Shown here piece after piece: positions 4,387 through 33,483 of a stretch of 33,487 bases of DNA; positions within the stretch are counted from its first letter, which is position 1, and every line of letters starts with the position of its first letter. The notes beneath the pieces were generated by a model that did no database searches, had not been told where the DNA came from, and saw nothing but the letters and a program-made list of their open reading frames with translations. The stretch is from the IMG/VR virus record IMGVR_UViG_3300044837_000038, positions 1-33,487 of that record; one strand, given 5' to 3'. The translations under genes and the position numbers were made by a program. This DNA is from a virus.

Positions 4387-4680
4387 ATGCCTAAAGGTGC
4401 TAAATACGGCGGCAGAGTAGCAGGAACGCCCAACAAGGCGACGAAACAATTCCGTGATACGGTTACTGCTTTGCTCGATAAGAACGCCGCCAACGTCGAT
4501 CTATGGCTTCAACAGGTGGCAGAGGGAATCGGCGATGCAAAGCCTGATCCTGGGAAAGCATTGGACCTGATGGCTAAGTTGGCTGAGTTTGCAGCGCCTA
4601 AGCTCGGACGTATTGAGCATGTCGGCGATGGTGGTGGCGCAGTCATCATTCAGGCTTCTACAGTAGATGAGCGGATTTAA
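4387..4680 (+). CDS. Putative terminase small subunit / DNA-binding protein
   Basis: A 97-residue protein from ATG 4387 (MPKGAKYGGRVAGTPNKAT). The N-terminal basic GGRxAGTPNKxT motif followed by a helical region (residues 20-75) and a Gly-rich end is common in small phage proteins placed directly before the large terminase. TTG 4369 and ATG 4375 are also in frame; none has a good ribosome site. The small terminase binds the packaging site and hands DNA to the large subunit. Assignment rests mainly on position and basic N-terminus. The HNH gene begins inside its 3' end. Confidence 0.6.
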   Translation: MPKGAKYGGRVAGTPNKATKQFRDTVTALLDKNAANVDLWLQQVAEGIGDAKPDPGKALDLMAKLAEFAAPKLGRIEHVGDGGGAVIIQASTVDERI

Positions 4681-5266
4681 GCAATGCTCAAGATGCGCTG
4701 ATCTGCTCCCTATCGGAGCGTACCACGCTTGTAAAAAAGAGAAGAGTGGGTATAAAAGTGCCTGCAAGGAATGTATAAAACATTCAAATGCATCTCGGTA
4801 TTTGCGTGATAAAGATAAAATTCTTGCTAAGACACGTCAGTGGCAAAGTGAAAATAAGGATTTTGTTGCAAAAATAGCTAAAGAGTGGCGCGTCAATAAT
4901 TTGAAAAAATGCGCAGAAGCAGCGTCTATATGGCGAAAAAAACATCCTGAAAAGTCTAAATCGGTAATGGCATCTTATGCCAAGAAGAATAAATCGATAA
5001 TAAATGCTATAGGTGCACGGCGTCGTGCATTAAAAGCTTTGGCGTCTCCACAATGGTCTAATAGAAGCGATATACGAGCATTTTATGAGACAGCGGCTGG
5101 GCTAAGTATGCTGACTGGCGATTGGTATCATGTTGACCATATTGTGCCAATAAACAGTAAGTATGTATGCGGATTACATGTAGCAGCAAATTTGCGTGTA
5201 ATAACGGCTACTGAGAACTCAAAAAAAGGTAATCGATACTGGCCGGATATGCCATGTTCAAACTGA
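4667..5266 (+). CDS. HNH homing-type endonuclease nested between terminase genes
   Basis: A 199-residue protein with an N-terminal Zn-ribbon-like region (CSRC, then CKECIKHSNASRYL), a long Lys-rich helical middle (residues 45-115), and an HNH centre near the C-terminus: HVDHIVPINSKYVCGLHVAANLRVITATENSKKGN. HVDHIVP supplies the first His/Asp pair and N-x-x-x-x-x-x-x-E-N-x-x-K-G-N the end of the fold. It overlaps the small terminase by 14 bases and the large terminase by 13. Its codons are more A+T rich than the terminase genes. Such genes are mobile, yet HNH proteins next to terminase can also be packaging cofactors (as in HK97-like phages). Confidence 0.88.
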   Translation: MSGFKQCSRCADLLPIGAYHACKKEKSGYKSACKECIKHSNASRYLRDKDKILAKTRQWQSENKDFVAKIAKEWRVNNLKKCAEAASIWRKKHPEKSKSVMASYAKKNKSIINAIGARRRALKALASPQWSNRSDIRAFYETAAGLSMLTGDWYHVDHIVPINSKYVCGLHVAANLRVITATENSKKGNRYWPDMPCSN

Positions 5267-9921: not shown

Positions 9922-10209
9922 ATGACGATGACAGCATGTGGGTATCAACAAATTGCGTCAACTGGCCTTGCAACAGCGGTCGGTTTGACAATCCCTACAA
10001 CTTCGCAACAGAAGCCGACGCAGTGCATTATTACGTGCGAGACACAAGCTATCCGCTGGCGTGATGATGGCGTGAATCCAACCGCTACAGTTGGCTATCC
10101 GCTGGCTGTTGGTGCTGAATTGCGCTATGACGGTAATTTGCCAGCTATCCGATTTATTGAACAAACCGCAAGCGCAGTGTTGAACGTAAGCTATTACTAT
10201 GGAAACTAG
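9922..10209 (+). CDS. Small beta-rich structural protein (95 aa)
   Basis: It begins MTMTACGYQQIASTGLATAVGL and ends AIRFIEQTASAVLNVSYYYGN. The motif with R-W-R-D-D-G and the IRFIEQ-x-x-x-A-x-LNVSYY end is a familiar pattern in small phage head/decoration proteins. Start supported by AAGGA. It overlaps the next start by 11 bases. Role inferred from position. Confidence 0.65.
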   Translation: MTMTACGYQQIASTGLATAVGLTIPTTSQQKPTQCIITCETQAIRWRDDGVNPTATVGYPLAVGAELRYDGNLPAIRFIEQTASAVLNVSYYYGN

Positions 10210-10534
10210 CCCATCGCAGTACCCATCATCGCTTACATCTGTCTATCAGACGGCAACTCCTTTGGCAGGAGATACGGTAATTGGGACGGCAACGGCATCT
10301 AATCTGCTTACCTGGATTACGCCCGCTGGAACGTTGCTGACTTTGACTTACACGTTGCCATCAAATGCGAGTTCTGTCATTGGCCAAGTTGTGCGTATTG
10401 GTTCCTCTCAGGCCGTTACCACTCTGACAATTAATGGCGCGACAACAATATTGAATACGATTACAGCATTAGTCGCTGGTGCATGCGTGCAATTGATTAA
10501 AGTTGCTGATAACACTTGGACAAGATTAATTTAA
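10199..10534 (+). CDS. Small beta-rich structural protein, fibre-domain-like (111 aa)
   Basis: The protein has a fibre-type domain: LTLTYTLPSNASSVIGQVVRIGSSQAVTTL, then a Thr/Ile-rich strand series and VQLIKVADNTWTRLI at the end. This arrangement is common at the C-terminus of phage tail-fibre and head-fibre proteins. ATG 10199 lies inside the 3' end of the upstream gene. Probably a decoration or head-fibre subunit. The 93 bases after it hold only a loose CTGTTC/GAACAG inverted repeat. Confidence 0.6.
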   Translation: METSPSQYPSSLTSVYQTATPLAGDTVIGTATASNLLTWITPAGTLLTLTYTLPSNASSVIGQVVRIGSSQAVTTLTINGATTILNTITALVAGACVQLIKVADNTWTRLI

Positions 10535-10627
10535 GAAATTCGTCAGTTTTCGGTACTGTTCCTGAAAGCACAATGGCGTAACGAACAGGTGATGACAAAC
10601 ATAAACCCTCTTTTTTAGGAACATAAA

Positions 10628-11368
10628 ATGGCTACTACTTACTATCTGGTTCCGGCGGGTACTGTCTCGCCGAACATCGCAATTACGCCGCAAGTATCTG
10701 TTACCGCTGGTCCGTCTGTTTTGGGCGGCTCTGTCACGCTGGAATTCGCTACTAGTCAGCAAGGCCCATGGGCTACTGCATTCACTGGTACAACTGGCGG
10801 TTCCTACCGGCCTATCGTCAATGGCTATGTGCGGATCACTGCTGTCACCAATTCGGTGAATGCATTCGTTTCCGATCTGGGCCAGGGTGCAAATGGTGAT
10901 TTCGACACATTGATTCAACTGAATGCAGTTATGGCTTCGCCGAACTCGACATCTGCTGCATATCTGGCAGGCTTCAAGATTCCGCCTAACTTCCTGAGCC
11001 CTAACTTCCGTATTGAAGTGTCCGGCACATTGTCACTGACCAATAGCGCCACTGTGAAGACCCTGAACGTGTACGGTAACGGCATCGCTGGCACAGCACT
11101 GGCAACTTCGCCATCTCTGGCATCGATTGCCAATTACAACTTCAATACGGTCATCAGTGGTCGTGGCGATGGGGCAACGATCATTGGTTCCGGTATGCTG
11201 GCATCGCAGACAGCGGCGCAAGGTGGTTACGGTTCGACTACCACAGCCATTCCATCTCTGACATTCGCTTATTTGACTACTGAACTGGAAATTGTGGTCG
11301 GCGTCACCAAGGCGACTGGTACGGACACTGCGCAACTTGAAACACTGCGCGCAACGATTTACGTTTAA
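10628..11368 (+). CDS. Beta-rich structural protein, likely capsid decoration (246 aa)
   Basis: It begins MATTYYLVPAGTVSPNIAIT with TTAGGAAC upstream. The first 90 residues look like an Ig-like beta sandwich; a middle region contains PPNFLSPNFRIEVSGTLSLTNS, and the C-terminus TELEIVVGVTKATGTDTAQLETLRATIYV resembles the end of 8885-9913 (last strands around MFLSITSQMTTGAETVSLVDYTMEL). G+C is higher than in its upstream neighbours. A hairpin separates it from the scaffold gene. Confidence 0.6.
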   Translation: MATTYYLVPAGTVSPNIAITPQVSVTAGPSVLGGSVTLEFATSQQGPWATAFTGTTGGSYRPIVNGYVRITAVTNSVNAFVSDLGQGANGDFDTLIQLNAVMASPNSTSAAYLAGFKIPPNFLSPNFRIEVSGTLSLTNSATVKTLNVYGNGIAGTALATSPSLASIANYNFNTVISGRGDGATIIGSGMLASQTAAQGGYGSTTTAIPSLTFAYLTTELEIVVGVTKATGTDTAQLETLRATIYV

Positions 11369-11390
11369 AACGCATTTGCATCAATGCTTA

Positions 11391-11415
11391 CCAGTGAGCT
11401 TTTCCACTGGGTTTT
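11391..11415 (+). terminator. Hairpin with short T run before the scaffold gene
   Basis: CCAGTG (11391-11396) pairs with CACTGG (11405-11410) around eight bases and is followed by GTTTT. It may be a partial terminator lowering transcription into scaffold and coat, or an mRNA-stabilising 3' end for the abundant decoration transcript. Confidence 0.4.
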
Positions 11416-11430
11416 GATACTTGGGAAACC

Positions 11431-12297
11431 ATGGCTGATACTAACGAACAGCAATCATTGGCTGAAAACAATGAGGTAGTTGAGTCTGATATTGCGGAAC
11501 AAGATATTACGCAGGCCAATGAAGCAGACGCATTGGAAGATTCGGAAACGGATGAGGAAAAGAATGCTCGTGCAATAGAAGAGGAAGCGACTAAACGCGC
11601 TGCCAAGGAAGAGAAACGCCAGCTAGGGGTACAGCGACGGATTGATGAATTAACCGCCGCACGGTATCAAGAGAAGGCGCGTGCAGACCATTTGCAGACA
11701 GAGATTGAACGCCTGCGACAACCTGTGCAACCTCAACAACAGGCAAGCGGTGAACCGCAACGTGATCAGTTCGAAAGCTATGAAGACTATCTGGAAGCCA
11801 AGGTTACATTCAAGGCGCAACAGATCGTTGATAAGCAATTAGAGCAGTCAGCTACGAAGCAAAAGGAAACGACGACGGCAGCCGAAGCATATAAAACGCA
11901 GCAGGCTGAACAGCGTCAATTCCTCGAGAATCGCGGCAAGCTCGAAAAAGAAATTCCAGACTACAAGGATACGATAGAGGATTGGGAGCCAAATCTTCCT
12001 GATACTGTAGCGGCCATGTTGATCAAATTGCCTGATGGCCCTTTGATTACGTATCACATGGCAAAGAATCCAAGCCTGGAAGCTCAATTTCGTGATCAAC
12101 CTGAATACATGCATGGTGTGATCTTGGGGCAGTTAATCGCCTCACTCAAAAGTCCTCCGAAGGTAACTACAGCGCCCGCGCCGGGTAAGACAGTATCGAC
12201 GACAAAGACAACCTCTACCGGGGATGAACCGCCGTCTGATCCTGAGCAATATTTTGCGTGGGCTACACGTCAGCAGAAAGCTGGCAAACTTCGTTAA
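11431..12297 (+). CDS. Scaffolding protein
   Basis: A 288-residue acidic, helical, Gln/Glu-rich protein directly before the coat gene. Residues 1-55 are acidic, 55-165 form an almost continuous charged helix (EEKNARAIEEEATKRAAKEE, then RIDELTAARYQEKARADHLQ), and the C-terminus is Pro/Thr/Lys-rich ending QQKAGKLR, with the basic tip that P22-type scaffolds use to contact coat. It co-assembles with coat into the procapsid and leaves during packaging. Cysteine-free composition, size and order portal-scaffold-coat match P22 gp8. Confidence 0.85.
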   Translation: MADTNEQQSLAENNEVVESDIAEQDITQANEADALEDSETDEEKNARAIEEEATKRAAKEEKRQLGVQRRIDELTAARYQEKARADHLQTEIERLRQPVQPQQQASGEPQRDQFESYEDYLEAKVTFKAQQIVDKQLEQSATKQKETTTAAEAYKTQQAEQRQFLENRGKLEKEIPDYKDTIEDWEPNLPDTVAAMLIKLPDGPLITYHMAKNPSLEAQFRDQPEYMHGVILGQLIASLKSPPKVTTAPAPGKTVSTTKTTSTGDEPPSDPEQYFAWATRQQKAGKLR

Positions 12298-12309
12298 GGA
12301 AAATTTATC

Positions 12310-13551
12310 ATGGCAAACGGCTTTCAAAACCCAGTGATGTACACCGATGAGACTCTGCGAGTTCTCATGAACAATATCGTGCTTGGCAAAAAAGTATCAC
12401 GCAAGCACCAAAAGGAATTCGGCAAAGACTCGATGAAGATTGGTGACACAATCAACATCCGTCGTCCTGCTCGATTCACTGTTTCGAGTGGTCAGGCGTT
12501 TCAAGGCCAGGACTACACCGAAACATCGATCCCGCTGGTGGTCAACCAACAAAAGCACATCGATACGTCTTTCACAAGCGCCGATTTGACTTTGAAGGTG
12601 CAAGACTTTTCGGATCGCGTCATCAAGCCGGGTGCAATTCAGATTGCTCAGCAAATCGATATCGATGGTTATATCAATGCGAAAAACACCATCGGCAATC
12701 TGACCGGCACTGCCGGCACTTCGCCGAACAATGTTTCGTTCCTGTTCGACATCGGCAAGAAGCTGGATGATTTCTCCGTTCCGCGCGATGATCAACGGTT
12801 CTATGTTGCCGATCAAGGCACTACAGCATCGCAAGTCGCCGCACTGACTGGTTTTTTCAATCAGCAAAAGATGGTCGGCCAACAATACGAAGACGGTATC
12901 TTCGTTGATGGCACCAATACCATTGGCCTCAAGATCGCCATGTCGCAAAACGTGTCGCGTCAACTGGTCGGCCCTCTGGGCGGTTCGCCAGTGGTCAACG
13001 GTGCATCGCAAGGTCTGGTATCTGGCTGGGCTAACACTGGCACATTGATTACCAATGGCTGGACTGCTGCTGCTGCTCTGCGTCTGCGTGCTGGCGATGT
13101 TTTCACTGCGGTCGGCTGCAATTCGGTCAATCCAGTGACAAAGAACTCGACAGGTCAATTGATGCAGTTCGTAGTGTTGTCGGATACATCTTCGGATGCT
13201 TCTGGTAATGCAACGATCAGCATCAGCCCCGCGATCATCACTGCTGGCCCATTCCAGAACGTCACTGCATCGCCGACCAACGGCGGTGCACTGGTTGTCT
13301 CTGGTACTGCATCGACAAGCTATGCGCGTAACCTGGCATGGCATTCCGATGCATTCGAACTAGCTGTAGTCAAGATGGTTGACTTAGCTGAGTTCGGCGG
13401 CTGGGGTGCGGTCCGTTCACAAGATGGATTTGCACTGCGTGTGTTCCGTCAGGCAGCTATCTCATCTGACACTGTCGGGAATCGCGTCGACTCTTTGTAT
13501 GGGTGGGCCAGCCCCTATCCTGAACAAGCTACGCAACAGGTTAGTGCGTGA
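12310..13551 (+). CDS. Major capsid (coat) protein, P22 type
   Basis: A 413-residue protein matching the P22-type coat family (P22 gp5 about 430). Features include MANGFQNPVMYTDETLRVLM, KIGDTINIRRPARFTV, then VNQQKHIDTSFTSADLTL, and a late segment LAWHSDAFELAVVKM with GFALRVFRQAAISSDTVGNRVDSLYGW. The central Gly/Ser/Thr region (about 225-345) corresponds to the inserted telokin-like domain of P22 coat. Start has AAGGA upstream. Codons look optimised for high expression. An HNH gene follows immediately. Confidence 0.94.
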   Translation: MANGFQNPVMYTDETLRVLMNNIVLGKKVSRKHQKEFGKDSMKIGDTINIRRPARFTVSSGQAFQGQDYTETSIPLVVNQQKHIDTSFTSADLTLKVQDFSDRVIKPGAIQIAQQIDIDGYINAKNTIGNLTGTAGTSPNNVSFLFDIGKKLDDFSVPRDDQRFYVADQGTTASQVAALTGFFNQQKMVGQQYEDGIFVDGTNTIGLKIAMSQNVSRQLVGPLGGSPVVNGASQGLVSGWANTGTLITNGWTAAAALRLRAGDVFTAVGCNSVNPVTKNSTGQLMQFVVLSDTSSDASGNATISISPAIITAGPFQNVTASPTNGGALVVSGTASTSYARNLAWHSDAFELAVVKMVDLAEFGGWGAVRSQDGFALRVFRQAAISSDTVGNRVDSLYGWASPYPEQATQQVSA

Positions 13552-13555
13552 TGTA

Positions 13556-13584
13556 TTGAAATCATAGCATTGTGACTGTATAAT
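13556..13584 (+). promoter_or_regulatory. Strong sigma70-type promoter for the coat-downstream HNH gene
   Basis: TTGAAA (13556-13561) and a perfect TATAAT (13579-13584) are spaced by exactly 17 bases. Transcription would start near 13591, inside the left arm of the hairpin at 13582-13623. The -35 begins five bases after the coat stop. Confidence 0.8.
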
Positions 13585-13623
13585 CTCCAAGATGCGGATA
13601 TGTCCCCGTTAATCTTGGAGATT
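13582..13623 (+). promoter_or_regulatory. RBS-sequestering hairpin overlapping the HNH promoter
   Basis: AATCTCCAAGAT (13582-13593) and ATCTTGGAGATT (13612-13623) are perfect 12-base complementary arms around an 18-base loop. The right arm contains the GGAG ribosome site (13617-13620) of ATG 13627. Transcripts reading through from the coat gene contain both arms and would hide the site; transcripts from the local promoter start near 13591 and lose most of the left arm, leaving it open. Confidence 0.8.
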
Positions 13624-13626
13624 GTT

Positions 13627-14388
13627 ATGAAACGATGTTGTGTAGATGGGTGTAAAAAAGAAGCTAGGGCAGATAGTTATTGTTGGAAGCATCACAACCG
13701 AAGTATTAAGTATGGCGATCCATTAGCTGGTCCTCAATATTATGGAAATCTTTCTCCCCAAGAAAGATTTATGAAGTATGTTGATAAGACTGCGAAAAAT
13801 GGATGCTGGCATTGGATTGGTGCCATTGATAAAGGATATGGGAAGTTCAGAATCGATGACAAAAATGTGTATGCTCATAGAGCATCAGTACTATTTTTTC
13901 ACAAGCCGAATGTAGACTTTTCTAAATTGCTTGTATGTCATAAATGCGATAATACGATGTGTGTTAATCCAGATCATTTGTTTCTTGGAACACATCAGGA
14001 TAACGTTGATGACAAGATGCAAAAAGGTAGGCATGTTTCAACAAAAGGTGTTGATAGTCCGCATGCAAAATTGACAGAGGAAAATGTTTTATATATTCGT
14101 GACTGCGAAAAATCAGCGGAGCAGCTAGCAATAGAGTTCAATGTTTCTACTTCGAATATTAATGCAATTCGATCTGGAAAAAGATGGAAACATGTTGGTG
14201 GCAAGATCGTAGTAATTTCGAATCACGTTTCTGGCGAAAATCATCCGATGAAAAAATTGGATGAAGAAAAAGTTAGATATATTCGGAATAGTGATAAAAA
14301 AACACGTGATATTGCAATGGAATTAGGGATTTCATACGTAACTGCTTATGAAGTCCGTAAGGGTAAAACATGGAAGCACGTCATCTAA
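13627..14388 (+). CDS. HNH homing endonuclease with two C-terminal HTH repeats
   Basis: A 253-residue protein. Residues 1-33 form a small Zn-type module (CCVDGC, YCWKHH, then YGDP). The HNH core spans about 45-135: FMKYVDKTAKNGCWHWIGA, VYAHRAS, LLVCHKCDNTMCVNPDHLFL with GTHQDN. Two tandem HTH-like repeats follow (LTEENVLYIRDCEKSAEQLA and LDEEKVRYIRNSDKKTRDIA, each ending KRWKHV or KTWKHV), likely binding DNA bases near the cut. GGAG lies six bases before ATG 13627; the in-frame ATG 13600 lies in the hairpin loop and has no site. A+T-rich codons contrast with the coat gene, as in mobile homing genes. Confidence 0.92.
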   Translation: MKRCCVDGCKKEARADSYCWKHHNRSIKYGDPLAGPQYYGNLSPQERFMKYVDKTAKNGCWHWIGAIDKGYGKFRIDDKNVYAHRASVLFFHKPNVDFSKLLVCHKCDNTMCVNPDHLFLGTHQDNVDDKMQKGRHVSTKGVDSPHAKLTEENVLYIRDCEKSAEQLAIEFNVSTSNINAIRSGKRWKHVGGKIVVISNHVSGENHPMKKLDEEKVRYIRNSDKKTRDIAMELGISYVTAYEVRKGKTWKHVI

Positions 14389-14398
14389 GGAGCCTCAA

Positions 14399-14773
14399 AT
14401 GAACGAAATCGATTACAGCGAAATTAAACAACCTCAGGTTGTCAGTGCGAATGAGGAATGGGAACCGCCAGTACATAAATATTTCGGTAAGAAGCTGCCG
14501 AACGGTAAGACTGAGAAAGAACCGGTTTATACACATCAAGAATATCCTCGCTTGATGTACACGCAAGCCGATGGAAAGATCAAAGCCCGCGTTGTCGCTT
14601 CGGAAGAGGAAAAGATTGCGCTTGGCGATGGTTGGGAAAAGACGCCGGCAGCATTCGGCTATATCGGCGCACCTTCTTTTGAGGAAGCACTCGCGCTGAA
14701 AGATAAGGCAGCGGTAATTTCGGCCGACGCCGTCGATGCTCCTAAACGTGGCCGCCCTGCGAAAGTCGATTAA
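14399..14773 (+). CDS. Head-associated hypothetical protein (124 aa)
   Basis: Starts at ATG 14399 (MNEIDYSEIKQPQVV) with AAGGAG overlapping the HNH stop codon; the longer frame from 14348 runs into the HNH gene and is unlikely. Middle motifs are YTHQEYPRLMYTQADGKIKA and GDGWEKTPAAFGYIGAPSFE; the C-terminus KRGRPAKVD is AT-hook-like. Before HNH insertion it would have been the gene after coat. The next gene starts at its stop (TTAATGA). Probably a minor virion protein; role not known. Confidence 0.7.
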   Translation: MNEIDYSEIKQPQVVSANEEWEPPVHKYFGKKLPNGKTEKEPVYTHQEYPRLMYTQADGKIKARVVASEEEKIALGDGWEKTPAAFGYIGAPSFEEALALKDKAAVISADAVDAPKRGRPAKVD

Positions 14774-15468
14774 TGACAACCGTTGCGACACTTGTTAATG
14801 ATGCGGCCTACGATGCGCAGATACTAGGCCAGGACCAGACTTTATCCTCTGGCGATGGTCAACTACTGTTGCGCAAATTAAACCGCATGTTGGACTCGTG
14901 GAGCAATGAGAAGCAGTTGATTTATTCGAATACTGTGCAGACATTTTTGATGACGCCTAGTGTTGCGACGTATTCGACATCATTGCTTGCGCTGGGTCGG
15001 CCAGTATCGATTGATTCGATGACAGTTACGTTGAATAACATCGACTATCCAGTTGACATGATTGATCTGCTGAAATGGAATTCGATTACTTATAAGTTGA
15101 CCGAAGCAATTCCAAATCAGTGTTATTACAACGCCGGCATACCGAATGGCGAATTCAATTTCTATCCAAGGCCATATGCGCAATTCTTGTGTACGGTCTA
15201 TGGTAGTTACCAGCTTGCGCAGGTTCCATTGCTTCTCGCTACAGATTTGATCCTGCCGCCAGGGTATGAGGCTGCTATCGTTGCCTGTCTCGCTGTCGAA
15301 GCATGGAACTCGTTCAAGAGCGGCGATCCTTCCCCTTCAATGGTCAAGAAGGCAATCGAGACCCGCGCCGTTATCAAGCGTACTAATTTTCAACCGCTGG
15401 AAATGGCAACACCGTTTGACCATAACGATGGCGATATTTCTAATGCATTTTTATATAAAGCCTTTTGA
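14773..15468 (+). CDS. Head-to-tail connector, P22 gp4-like
   Basis: A 231-residue protein with features of the P22 gp4-like tail-accessory family: an N-terminal helical domain (LLLRKLNRMLDSWSNEKQLI), a beta-rich middle with RPVSIDSMTVTLNN and the YNAGIPNGEFNFYPRP motif, then YGSYQLAQVPLL and a helical end with YEAAIVACLAVEAWNSF. It binds beneath the portal and seals the head after packaging. P22 gp4 also has muramidase activity; I cannot see that here. Confidence 0.85.
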   Translation: MTTVATLVNDAAYDAQILGQDQTLSSGDGQLLLRKLNRMLDSWSNEKQLIYSNTVQTFLMTPSVATYSTSLLALGRPVSIDSMTVTLNNIDYPVDMIDLLKWNSITYKLTEAIPNQCYYNAGIPNGEFNFYPRPYAQFLCTVYGSYQLAQVPLLLATDLILPPGYEAAIVACLAVEAWNSFKSGDPSPSMVKKAIETRAVIKRTNFQPLEMATPFDHNDGDISNAFLYKAF

Positions 15469-15476
15469 GGAAATAA

Positions 15477-15890
15477 ATGAATACAACTACACGCGTCGAA
15501 TATGCATCTATTGCTGAATCAGTAGATGATTTCCCTTTGCGTATTTTTTCAGATATCGTGGTCATTTTGCAAGAAGTCGAAGAAAGAAGTAAGGGCGGAA
15601 TTATCTTCTCAGTTGGTAGTGAGGAAGCAAAATTGCCATGCGGGCGCGTTGTAGCGTGTGGTCCAGGTCGTATCTATACCTCAATGATGGATGCAAGCGG
15701 CGAGAACCAAATCGCTTACTTCGTACCGATGGAAATTAAGGTTGGAGATTGGTGTACATTTGGTCGCTTTCAGACTGGTGAGCCACTTGAACTGAATGGG
15801 AAAACCTATATCATGGCACGTGCTGGCGATATTGCCGCCGTGTCAAAATCCGGCGATCCAGTTCCTTTGCGCTTGGCGAAAGTCGGCTAA
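15477..15890 (+). CDS. GroES-like co-chaperonin
   Basis: A 137-residue protein with a cpn10 fold signature: PLRIFSDIVVILQEVEERSKGGIIF (matching the GroES N-terminal strand and mobile-loop region), then GRVVACGPGRIY, IKVGDWCTFGRF and LNGKTYIMARAGDIAAV, which aligns with the GroES tail ending in E-x-D-I-L-A. It is about 40 residues longer than GroES. Co-chaperonins cap GroEL-type rings during folding; T4 gp31 is the classic phage example that replaces GroES for coat folding. Here it lies in the head-gene cluster. GAGGAA precedes the start; the stop overlaps the next ATG (TAATG). Confidence 0.85.
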   Translation: MNTTTRVEYASIAESVDDFPLRIFSDIVVILQEVEERSKGGIIFSVGSEEAKLPCGRVVACGPGRIYTSMMDASGENQIAYFVPMEIKVGDWCTFGRFQTGEPLELNGKTYIMARAGDIAAVSKSGDPVPLRLAKVG

Positions 15891-17524
15891 TGTCTCAAAT
15901 TCATGTCTTCGGCATGGGAATTGCATCGCGCTCTCCCTATGTGACAGCGAAAAAATTACAGAATGTCTTCTGTGAGACTCGCCCTGCCGGAGAAAAGTCT
16001 ATGATCGTTGGTTATAAAACGCCTGGGTTATTGCAATTTGCAGACGGTGGAGATAATCCAGCGCGTGCGCTTTATTCGTTCGATAAAACAGATTCAGGCT
16101 ATGGCGTTTTCCTAAATGAGTTTGTGAATATCGGTGGAACTGGATCGATTACCAATATTGCACCGATTCAAACGTTTAATGGAAATATATCAATCGCGGA
16201 TAATGGCAATCAGATCATGATTGTAGACGGGACGTTTGGCTATATCTACATCGTCTCGCCTGTTGTTCAAACGATCTCTTCTATTACCCGCGTAGGAACG
16301 ACAGCAACGCTTACTACGGCGTTACCGCATGGTTTGGCTACTGGTATGCAGGTGACGGTTTCCGGGGCTTTACCGGCCCAATACAATGGTCTGTACACGA
16401 TTACGGTAACGAGTCCGACAGTCTTTACTTATGTGATGGCTTCCGATCCTGGCGCGAGTGCTTCGCCGGTCGGAACATATGCTGTTACATTGGCATTTGC
16501 TCGTATCACCGATCCTGATTTCCCTGTCAATCCAGTCACGGTTGCATTCCTTGCTGGCCGATTTGTCGTCAATTTCTCGCAACAAGGCCGCTATTATTGG
16601 TCAGATATTAATGATGGCACTTCTTGGGATGCGCTTAATTTTTCCAATGCAGAAACAAGCCCTGATCCGCTTGTAGCAATCTGGCAATCGAATGGTCAAT
16701 TAGTTTTGTTTGGATCGCGTACTACTGAATTTGCAGGCGTCAGTAGCTCATTAGATGCTGCCTTTGTATCGATTAAAGGTACTGCATCTGAATGGGGACT
16801 TGCTGCCGCTTTCAGCGTTGCAAAATATGATAATACACTCGCCTGCTTGATGCGCGGACGCATGGGGCAAGTCATGATCGCCAAGCTGAATGGTTATGTG
16901 CCACAGCGCATGAGTACGCCAGATATTGAATTTATCATCAATGGTTATTCGACTGTAAATGATGCGGTCGCATATAGCTATATGCTAGGTGGTCATGCAA
17001 TGTACGTGATTAATTTTCCGACTGCTGGCTTTACATGGCTGTATGATGGTTTCACGCAGATTTGGACATCGCTCAAAAGCCATGGCATTAATCGTCATCG
17101 TGTTCAATTAGCATTCTCGTTTTTGACATACACAATTGCATCAGATTTTGCAAATGGATTGCTTTATCAAATAACTGATCAAGCATATACCGATAATGGT
17201 ACGCAAATTGAATCAGAAATTATCAGCGAAAATATTAGCGATCCTGATTTGAATCGATTCTCGGTCAATAAATTCCGCGTAGATATGCAGGTTGGCATGG
17301 GCGATAACATCGTTGAGCGTCCTCAGATTGGGTTATCCGTATCGCGTGATAATGGCAAAAACTTTGGCGCTGAGATGTTGCAGGATGTAGGTCCGCTCGG
17401 AGATTACAGTAATGTGGTGGAATTTAATCGGCTTGGCGTATCGCGCGACTTTGTATTTAAGTTACGCATGAACGACGCTTTCCCGTTCATTTTAGTTAAT
17501 GCCATCATTAATCCAAAGGACTGA
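15890..17524 (+). CDS. Packaged-DNA stabilisation / tail accessory protein, P22 gp10-like
   Basis: A 544-residue protein with the opening (IHVFGMGIASRSPYVTAKKL, NVFCE, then GEKSMIVGYKTPGL) and later blocks (VGRFVVNFSQQGRYYWSDIN-type segment, SNGQLVLFGSRTTEFAG, KLNGYVPQRMSTPDIEF) of the P22 gp10 family. P22 gp10 is about 470 residues; the excess is explained by an inserted beta domain near residues 125-195 (ITRVGTTATLTTALPHGLAT, VTVSGALPAQYNGLYTITVT), a module common in phage and surface proteins. It helps plug the portal after packaging. Confidence 0.9.
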   Translation: MSQIHVFGMGIASRSPYVTAKKLQNVFCETRPAGEKSMIVGYKTPGLLQFADGGDNPARALYSFDKTDSGYGVFLNEFVNIGGTGSITNIAPIQTFNGNISIADNGNQIMIVDGTFGYIYIVSPVVQTISSITRVGTTATLTTALPHGLATGMQVTVSGALPAQYNGLYTITVTSPTVFTYVMASDPGASASPVGTYAVTLAFARITDPDFPVNPVTVAFLAGRFVVNFSQQGRYYWSDINDGTSWDALNFSNAETSPDPLVAIWQSNGQLVLFGSRTTEFAGVSSSLDAAFVSIKGTASEWGLAAAFSVAKYDNTLACLMRGRMGQVMIAKLNGYVPQRMSTPDIEFIINGYSTVNDAVAYSYMLGGHAMYVINFPTAGFTWLYDGFTQIWTSLKSHGINRHRVQLAFSFLTYTIASDFANGLLYQITDQAYTDNGTQIESEIISENISDPDLNRFSVNKFRVDMQVGMGDNIVERPQIGLSVSRDNGKNFGAEMLQDVGPLGDYSNVVEFNRLGVSRDFVFKLRMNDAFPFILVNAIINPKD

Positions 17525-17525
17525 T

Positions 17526-17768
17526 ATGCCATCCCAAATTTCACAACCTCCGCAGGGTTCAAATCCAGATTCCGTGCTTGGCATTGGATGGCAAGAATTT
17601 TTCGGTACTGCTGCTAATTTATTGGATGCGATTACGCAAAGCGGTATTACAGCAAATCGCCCAGTCAAAGGTTTATTTGTTGGCCGCCCTTATTTCGATA
17701 CAACCCTTGGCATTCCTATTTGGTATAGAGGAACTACATGGGTTAATGCTTCTGGAGGTGTAGTTTGA
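17526..17768 (+). CDS. Small tail/neck protein with fibre-like C-terminal motif (80 aa)
   Basis: ATG 17526 (MPSQISQPPQGSNPD) with AAAGGA upstream. The second half NRPVKGLFVGRPYFDTTLGI then PIWYRGTTWVNASGGVV is a short motif widely found in phage tail and spike proteins. The gene overlaps the next one by four bases, and its 3' end provides GGAGG for it. Role unknown; probably a minor virion component. Confidence 0.65.
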   Translation: MPSQISQPPQGSNPDSVLGIGWQEFFGTAANLLDAITQSGITANRPVKGLFVGRPYFDTTLGIPIWYRGTTWVNASGGVV

Positions 17769-18094
17769 ATACTTCTGAATTCCACGCAAACGCAAAGAAT
17801 CTTCCTCAAATTGAGATTGAGAAAAAACTGCATTTGACGGATAGCGTTTTGGGAATGGAAATGGCTATTCCTGCCGGCACGATGTTTGGTAAGGAAATGC
17901 ATAACTATTCTCATCTTAGCTTTTTGATGAAAGGTAATGCGATTGTAAGAAGCGGTGAAGAAACTATCAATCTTGTCGCGCCTTCCGTCATTGAAATTAA
18001 GGCAAATGTTTGGCATTCATGCGAAGCTGTAACAGATGTTATTTGGGTATGTGTACATAGTGCAAAAGAAACGGATATCACAGATCATGAATAA
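17765..18094 (+). CDS. Cupin-domain protein
   Basis: A 109-residue single cupin-like domain. Candidate metal ligands are His46 and His50 in MHNYSHLSFLMKGNAIV, Glu66 region and His84 (VWHSCEAV), arranged as in cupin motifs 1 and 2. It uses a TTG start at 17765 with GGAGG six bases upstream. It overlaps the downstream oxygenase gene by eight bases, so the two are probably made together. Cupins include many small-molecule and protein modification enzymes; substrate unknown. Confidence 0.75.
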   Translation: MNTSEFHANAKNLPQIEIEKKLHLTDSVLGMEMAIPAGTMFGKEMHNYSHLSFLMKGNAIVRSGEETINLVAPSVIEIKANVWHSCEAVTDVIWVCVHSAKETDITDHE

Positions 18095-33069: not shown

Positions 33070-33228
33070 ATGCTTAAGCCTCATTTATTCAAAGACGGTT
33101 GCTACTGCGCCTGCGCAAACAGCCGCTTCGATCATCATATACTCCGTAGCACATTCGGCGAAACACCGCTGATTGCGTTTCTCATGTGGCATAAGGCCCA
33201 TAATTTATTTCATATCCGAAATAAATAA
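33070..33228 (+). CDS. Small Cys-rich hypothetical protein (52 aa)
   Basis: ATG 33070 with AAGGA eight bases upstream encodes MLKPHLFKDGCYCACANSRF and ends HKAHNLFHIRNK. CxCxC at residues 11-15 and several His suggest metal binding. The last 24 bases overlap the 3' end of the convergent OrfA gene. Function unknown. Confidence 0.5.
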   Translation: MLKPHLFKDGCYCACANSRFDHHILRSTFGETPLIAFLMWHKAHNLFHIRNK

Positions 33229-33483
33229 ACTGAGTGCTTGTTTCAATACATTCCGCTCAGTCGTTACACGTTCTAGTTCTTGATATAAGCGGTCGTATTC
33301 TGCTTTGCTTATACCGGTAGCCAGTTGTTGATTTTGAACCACGTGGCTCTCTTTAATCCAGCGTGATAGCGTAAAAACGCTGATGCCAAGCGATTTAGCA
33401 ACATGTGATTTTGTAATGCCTGGTTGTTGTGCCTGTCTTACTGCATCATGTTTGAATTCAAGACTGAAATTTTTACGCTTCAT
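33205..33483 (-). CDS. IS3-family OrfA-type transposase subunit, solitary
   Basis: A 92-residue protein of the IS3/IS911 OrfA type: MKRKNFSLEFKHDAVRQAQQ start, HTH GITKSHVAKSLGISVFTLSR with WIKES, and a C-terminal leucine-zipper helix (DRLYQELERVTTERNVLKQA). OrfA binds the IS ends and is normally followed by OrfB with the DDE catalytic domain. No OrfB lies downstream: phage early genes follow at once. No inverted repeats are visible in the few bases before the edge. It may be an IS remnant or a phage gene reused as DNA-binding protein. Confidence 0.8.
   Translation of the reverse strand: MKRKNFSLEFKHDAVRQAQQPGITKSHVAKSLGISVFTLSRWIKESHVVQNQQLATGISKAEYDRLYQELERVTTERNVLKQALSLFISDMK

Follow-up and report, generated by a model that had tools for sequence, protein, structure and literature searches.

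A predicted promoter-in-hairpin switch ahead of a zinc-finger HNH endonuclease gene behind a P22-like phage coat gene

Homing endonuclease genes are generally known to occur near capsid genes (PMC10448857). A selfish nuclease that resides there sits among the genes that the virus transcribes most heavily, which raises the question of how its expression is separated from that of the head genes. The window, which is the whole stretch of DNA analysed here, is a virus record of 33.5 kb. Its head operon contains, in order, portal, scaffold, P22-like coat and HNH genes, a gene without assigned family and head-closure genes. The genes at the coat junction are as follows.

12310 to 13551, plus strand: P22-like coat (major head) protein gene (Pfam P22_CoatProtein, 1.9e-35; phrog_283 major head protein, 1.7e-64)
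13627 to 14388, plus strand: free-standing HNH homing-endonuclease-like gene, 253 aa (Pfam HNH_3, 2.3e-6; phrog_59 HNH endonuclease, 1.5e-32)
14399 to 14773, plus strand: next head-operon gene, beginning 10 nt past the HNH stop

The last of these matched no family in the Pfam and phrog searches. The HNH protein carries a zinc-finger-like motif at its N-terminus (C-x4-C-x9-C-x2-H) and scores 27.5 bits against Pfam PF13392 HNH_3, above the gathering cut-off of 24.8. Together with matches to the HNH endonuclease families phrog_59, phrog_1872 and phrog_3593, and with the presence and absence of the gene in the related loci L016 and L014, this places it among nucleases of the homing-endonuclease type. 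The gene is a predicted homing endonuclease gene, and it may be capable of homing. Its start codon is the ATG at 13627-13629; a longer frame from 13600 would start within the loop of the hairpin described here.

The interval between the coat and HNH genes contains a promoter-like site and an inverted repeat that are interlocked.

13556 to 13561, plus strand: -35 element TTGAAA (5/6), read on the sequence
13579 to 13584, plus strand: -10 element TATAAT (6/6), 17 nt from the -35 element, last 3 bases within the left arm
13582 to 13593, plus strand: left arm AATCTCCAAGAT of a perfect 12-bp hairpin (sequence, fold)
13590 to 13592, plus strand: predicted transcription start, 6-8 nt past the -10 element, from promoter geometry
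13612 to 13623, plus strand: right arm ATCTTGGAGATT of the hairpin, covering the Shine-Dalgarno (SD) sequence (sequence, fold)
13617 to 13620, plus strand: SD sequence GGAG of the HNH gene, entirely inside the right arm
13563 to 13642, plus strand: outer helix of 13563-13573 with 13632-13642, enclosing the start codon and the hairpin in the long RNA (minimum free energy (MFE) fold)

The first-pass annotation had described a perfect 12-base hairpin holding the HNH ribosome site in its right arm, a TTGAAA-17-TATAAT promoter overlapping the left arm, and the position of this element between the coat gene and the next head gene. All three descriptions agree with the coordinates: the SD sequence at 13617-13620 is in the right arm, the -10 element shares 3 bases with the left arm, and the element lies between the coat end at 13551 and the next gene start at 14399. 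The two arms are separated by a loop of 18 nt. The promoter is the best promoter-like site in 10000-18000, with 11 of 12 positions matched. When the whole window was shuffled 200 times with dinucleotides preserved, perfect 12-bp stems with loops of 3-30 nt occurred at a mean of 0.09 (1 observed) and plus-strand 11/12 promoters at 0.38 (1 observed), and none of the 200 shuffles contained both. An Rfam search of the window gave no family match at the gathering score.

Folding of the RNA suggests what this arrangement could do. The RNA of 13552-13660 has an MFE of -38 kcal/mol (z = -6.3), and its fold exceeds the earlier description, with 14 pairs, an inner 4-bp stem and the outer helix. In silico, the SD sequence is thus buried in a stable hairpin on RNA that comes from upstream. 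By promoter geometry, the local promoter would give RNA without the 5' arm, retaining at most the final 2-4 left-arm bases. RNA starting at 13591 folds with only -11.4 kcal/mol (z = -0.75) and the hairpin is lost. Exposure of the SD sequence and AUG is calculated to cost 17.6 kcal/mol in the long RNA versus 6.5 in the short RNA.

We consider it likely that the HNH gene, although located in the coat transcription unit, carries a self-contained expression cassette that is silent on read-through coat mRNA and translated from its own transcript. The coat gene is the presumed origin of the read-through mRNA. A long mRNA from the coat promoter would contain both arms, so that the hairpin would bury the SD sequence and start region of the HNH gene and the nuclease would not be translated from it. 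In the window the coat ribosomes terminate 30 nt short of the left arm and therefore should not open the hairpin. RNA polymerase that uses the embedded sigma70-type promoter would initiate at about 13591, close to where the left arm ends or beyond it. The resulting RNA would be unable to form the hairpin and would be translated. Expression of the HNH gene would then be low, set by its own promoter and early or constitutive, and shielded from the intense transcription that the capsid gene undergoes late.

The same layout is found in the nearest relative. Locus L002 encodes an HNH protein 63% identical over the full query length, at the same site, behind a coat gene whose C-terminus is the same. 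Its promoter, TTGACA-18-TATAAT, is followed by a stem TCCGTAGGGTGGC/GCCACTCTACGGA over its own GGAG. The long RNA of L002 has z = -4.7, and the SD-covering stem is gone in RNA from its own start. The L002 stem is unrelated in sequence to that of the window. A nucleotide search of phages with the 101-bp element returned merely 20-nt chance matches, and scanning viral contigs for the exact pattern produced no match; it is therefore the layout that is conserved, not the sequence itself. A search of genome contigs found no relative, and a plasmid search found distant HNH proteins only.

To place these two loci among other HNH genes, HNH_3 loci were gathered from viral contigs and coat loci were gathered separately, by pattern scans whose counts apply among the matches listed. 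Start codons in this survey were chosen by SD sequence and codon alone, ignoring hairpins. The N-terminal zinc-finger motif was present in 38 of 197 distinct HNH genes among the matches listed. Stems covering the SD sequence with a score of at least 25, counted as strong, preceded 18 of these 38 genes, as against 1 of 159 other HNH genes and 2 of 441 control ORFs from the same kind of loci, again among the matches listed. The single strong stem among HNH genes without the zinc finger indicates that the layout is not general to HNH genes. In phages of Gordonia, Mycobacterium, Arthrobacter and Rhizobium, the zinc-finger HNH gene overlaps or abuts the previous gene or is antisense.

Among the matches listed, a P22-like coat gene is immediately followed by a zinc-finger HNH gene in 18 cases, at a distance of about 46-118 nt from the coat stop. 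These 18 genes are spread over four clades of the protein tree. For these genes the -10 element as well as the start was picked without reference to hairpins. Exposure of the SD sequence and start codon costs at least 12 kcal/mol in 16 of the 18, with a mean of 18.1 kcal/mol compared with 7.8 for 400 control genes. When the RNA is cut back to the predicted start, the mean gain is 12.8 kcal/mol versus 0.4 in controls (p = 1.4e-11, a value that also counts one further coat-site gene with a misplaced start). A -10 element of 5/6 or better is found in 61% of the 18 and 4% of the controls, and cost, gain and -10 element coincide in 9/18 versus 0/400. The overall share is inflated by the use of hairpin-bearing members as seeds for queries A2 and A3; the ten-locus test and the HNH-less test are unaffected by this.

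Because of this seeding, ten coat-site loci that were first met after the pattern was noticed, and that were unselected for hairpin, were tested separately. In eight of the ten, exposure cost 12 kcal/mol or more and truncation recovered 6 kcal/mol or more, compared with 17 of 600 control genes (p = 1e-10); 3 of the 600 also appear switch-like when a -10 element is required. One of the ten, L285, is the public annotated record MW202691.1, in which a P22 coat protein gene is followed by an endonuclease gene with the stem CCGTATAATGTCGGG..CCCGCATTATACGG. The first-pass annotation had proposed that the hairpin is shut on read-through coat mRNA and open on the local transcript, and had named loss of pairing in HNH-bearing relatives as an observation that would speak against it. 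Pairing is kept in nearly all relatives at the site, including L002, and this comparison gives the predicted switch strong support.

The promoters are less uniform than the stems. Many members are without a good -35 element at 15-19 nt, and in 6 of the 18 coat-site members a TG lies one base ahead of the chosen -10 element, pointing to extended -10 promoters in members with a poor -35 element. A convincing -10 element is absent in L126, L071 and L131. L127 is a clear exception to the layout: behind its coat gene (2440-2500), a 9-bp hairpin GAATGACGG..CCGTCATTC has the -10 element TATAAT in its loop and leaves the SD sequence outside the stem, possibly as a decayed or different form. The relatives are mostly metagenome contigs, and recognition by sigma70 is assumed.

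Two further forms of the layout were observed. One is compact: its -10 box belongs to the left arm and is paired to the region of the start codon (TATACT...AGTATG), as in L124 (TATACTGACCTCTCA/TGAGGGGTCAGTATG), L263 (TATAGTGGTGCTC/GAGCACCACTATG), L048, L254 and L128. In the second, the -10 element is in the loop; this form is seen in L145 and in the group of L067, L107, L139 and L118, which is located between exonuclease and helicase genes. Outside the capsid region, TTGTGTCTGTCATTCCTATAAAATGGACTGACTGACACAAGGAG is conserved in the roughly 60 nt that precede the HNH start in L067, L107, L139, L118 and L160. In L281 (Sulfitobacter phage phiGT1, 1960-2100), the probable start of the zinc-finger HNH gene is an ATG after GTAGGAGGG, 5' of the GTG annotated at 2100, and the upstream TTATAAAAAATGG is similar to the L067-type element. 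L172 and L114 have the layout after major head protein genes from two further families (phrog_1328 and phrog_334), and the association is therefore with capsid genes and not with the P22 coat alone.

An inverted repeat over a promoter might also be a DNA operator, where binding of the HNH protein, or of a phage repressor, over the -10 element would shut the promoter, as with I-TevI at its own operator. The repeat overlaps the -10 element in many members, autorepression by I-TevI is known, and helix-turn-helix-like C-terminal repeats in HNH proteins point weakly in the same direction. The departures from pairing argue otherwise. Across 22 stems, the positions that depart from Watson-Crick pairing comprised 25 G-U (G-T in DNA) and 3 A-C (p = 2.7e-5), as judged with a stem finder that weighted G-T and A-C equally. 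This bias indicates that pairing is selected in RNA of mRNA sense; a DNA palindrome would not favour it. In L124, L123, L048 and L128, 6 of 14 pairs are altered on both sides, a number reached in 0 of 500 shuffles, and this covariation vanishes when the partner is slid by one column. An alignment of the exonuclease/helicase group (A5, made with MAFFT) holds little information on covariation, its stems being conserved and one row misplaced. Moreover, the stems of the window and L002 are unrelated despite the similarity of their proteins, and the stems cover the SD sequence, which is unnecessary for an operator. We regard the operator as very unlikely, and pairing in the RNA, as these comparisons show, as what is maintained.

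A pair of loci with and without the HNH gene indicates what the insertion brings. L014 and L016 share 97.7% identity as far as the final codons of coat, and 96.5% from the terminator region on. Between these points L016 holds about 716 bp (1610-2325) with promoter, hairpin and HNH gene, in place of 25 bp in L014 (5254-5278). The HNH-less L014 contains neither the promoter nor the hairpin of the insert, so that, by this comparison, both are confined to it. A terminator is present downstream of the L016 insert, and since the insert lies between the coat gene and this terminator, each coat transcript that reaches the terminator includes the HNH gene. The terminator stems of L014 and L016 differ in sequence and keep pairing and T run, as if converted along with the insertion.

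Hairpins behind coat genes need not have anything to do with a nuclease, and the stem could be a 3' structure of the coat mRNA (a terminator, stabiliser or RNase III site) that precedes the HNH gene by chance. HNH-less relatives indeed have post-coat hairpins, with a T run in three cases (L014, L017 and L018). These hairpins, however, leave the next SD sequence free: it was buried in 0 of 16 genes that follow a P22-like coat gene without HNH, and none of these genes had a -10 element of 5/6. The HNH stems are also without a following T run, save a weak TTTT in L013; in the window ATCTTGGAGATTGTTATGAAA follows the stem, which is not among the predicted terminator-like sites. In addition, L016 keeps its separate terminator downstream of the HNH gene, and the layout occurs at the non-structural exonuclease/helicase locus of the L067 group. 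A coat 3' structure is therefore highly improbable as an explanation, and masking of the HNH ribosome site is the reading we prefer.

The promoter could also be supposed to act on the head genes further along the operon, from 14399 on, having been displaced or supplied by the insertion, with the hairpin merely quieting the nuclease. Insertions of T4 seg and mob genes bear promoters of neighbouring genes, and no terminator was found between the HNH gene and the 14399 gene in the window; none remains downstream of the HNH gene in L002 and L013 either. In L016 and L131, on the other hand, a terminator parts the HNH gene from the next gene, in L131 as a terminator-like stem with its T run kept. 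HNH-less relatives are without a comparable promoter before the next gene, and the exact placement that omits the left arm would be left unexplained. We give this reading only a slim chance and retain a promoter that serves the nuclease.

The window contains a second nuclease gene (4667-5266, plus strand), endonuclease VII/HNH-like (phrog_1035, 8.5e-20), just 5' of the large terminase gene; it overlaps the terL start (5254) and the 3' end of the preceding ORF. No promoter-hairpin of the HNH type is present there, so the two inserted nucleases of this phage seem to be differently expressed. An ORF at the window end (33205-33483, minus strand) resembles the first ORF of an IS3-type transposase and might mark a host or insertion boundary.

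Switches of this kind are already known for T4 I-TevI, I-TevII, I-TevIII and segB and for Aeh1 mobE (PMC2988022). As in the I-Tev genes (PMC2988022; PMC3014915), the SD-burying hairpin would form only on RNA initiated upstream, and the local RNA would be without the 5' arm. The I-Tev genes are intron-encoded, with late or middle T4 promoters and delayed translation, whereas the gene studied here is a free-standing HNH_3 gene whose promoter looks like that of host sigma70. Instead of a T4-type late promoter (TATAAATA), TTGAAA-17-TATAAT in the window and TTGACA-18-TATAAT in L002 are of sigma70 type, which makes this a variant rather than a member of the T4 set. The likeness to I-TevI claimed in the first-pass annotation stands for the architecture (PMC2988022) but not for the promoter and probably not for the timing, and the transcripts that would be silenced are those of the late capsid genes. 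With a sigma70-like promoter, the timing is probably the reverse of that in T4: late T4 promoters delay translation, while here late capsid transcripts would be silenced. The leaders of T4 gene e, soc and gene 49 share the promoter-in-stem switch and differ in being non-mobile and under T4 late promoters; for gene e, the structured RNA yields about 100-fold less lysozyme (PMC3014915).

Aeh1 mobE and T4 segB are closer in that they are free-standing intergenic insertions with an RBS hairpin, and mobE is also an HNH gene. They differ in belonging to T4-like phages, in their T4-type promoters and in their protein families, and the mobE site is nrdA. In IS10 and IS50, an SD-burying fold shields the mobile gene from read-through, and the transcript made from its own promoter cannot form this fold; protection from external promoters was reportedly described by Davis, Simons and Kleckner (1985) and by Krebs and Reznikoff (1986). 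These elements encode a transposase, their fold comes from a terminal repeat, and they are likened here by description, not by sequence. Free-standing mobE and segB and the read-through protection of IS10/IS50 are better analogues than I-TevI.

In the open-access papers searched, we found no description of the combination of a sigma70-type promoter, a zinc-finger HNH_3 gene, a capsid junction and a freely changing stem. We lean towards the view that zinc-finger HNH genes outside the T4 group carry a portable promoter-in-hairpin cassette behind at least three unrelated capsid families, with sigma70-type expression, silence on late mRNA and T4 timing reversed, and that in the compact form a single repeat is at once promoter, SD mask and start-codon mask. 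A promoter inside an SD-burying stem whose sequence is free to vary provides a computable signature for such elements, and the expression time of homing endonucleases in non-T4 phages becomes directly testable. If this view is correct, the T4 device would be a recurrent solution and not a peculiarity of T4.
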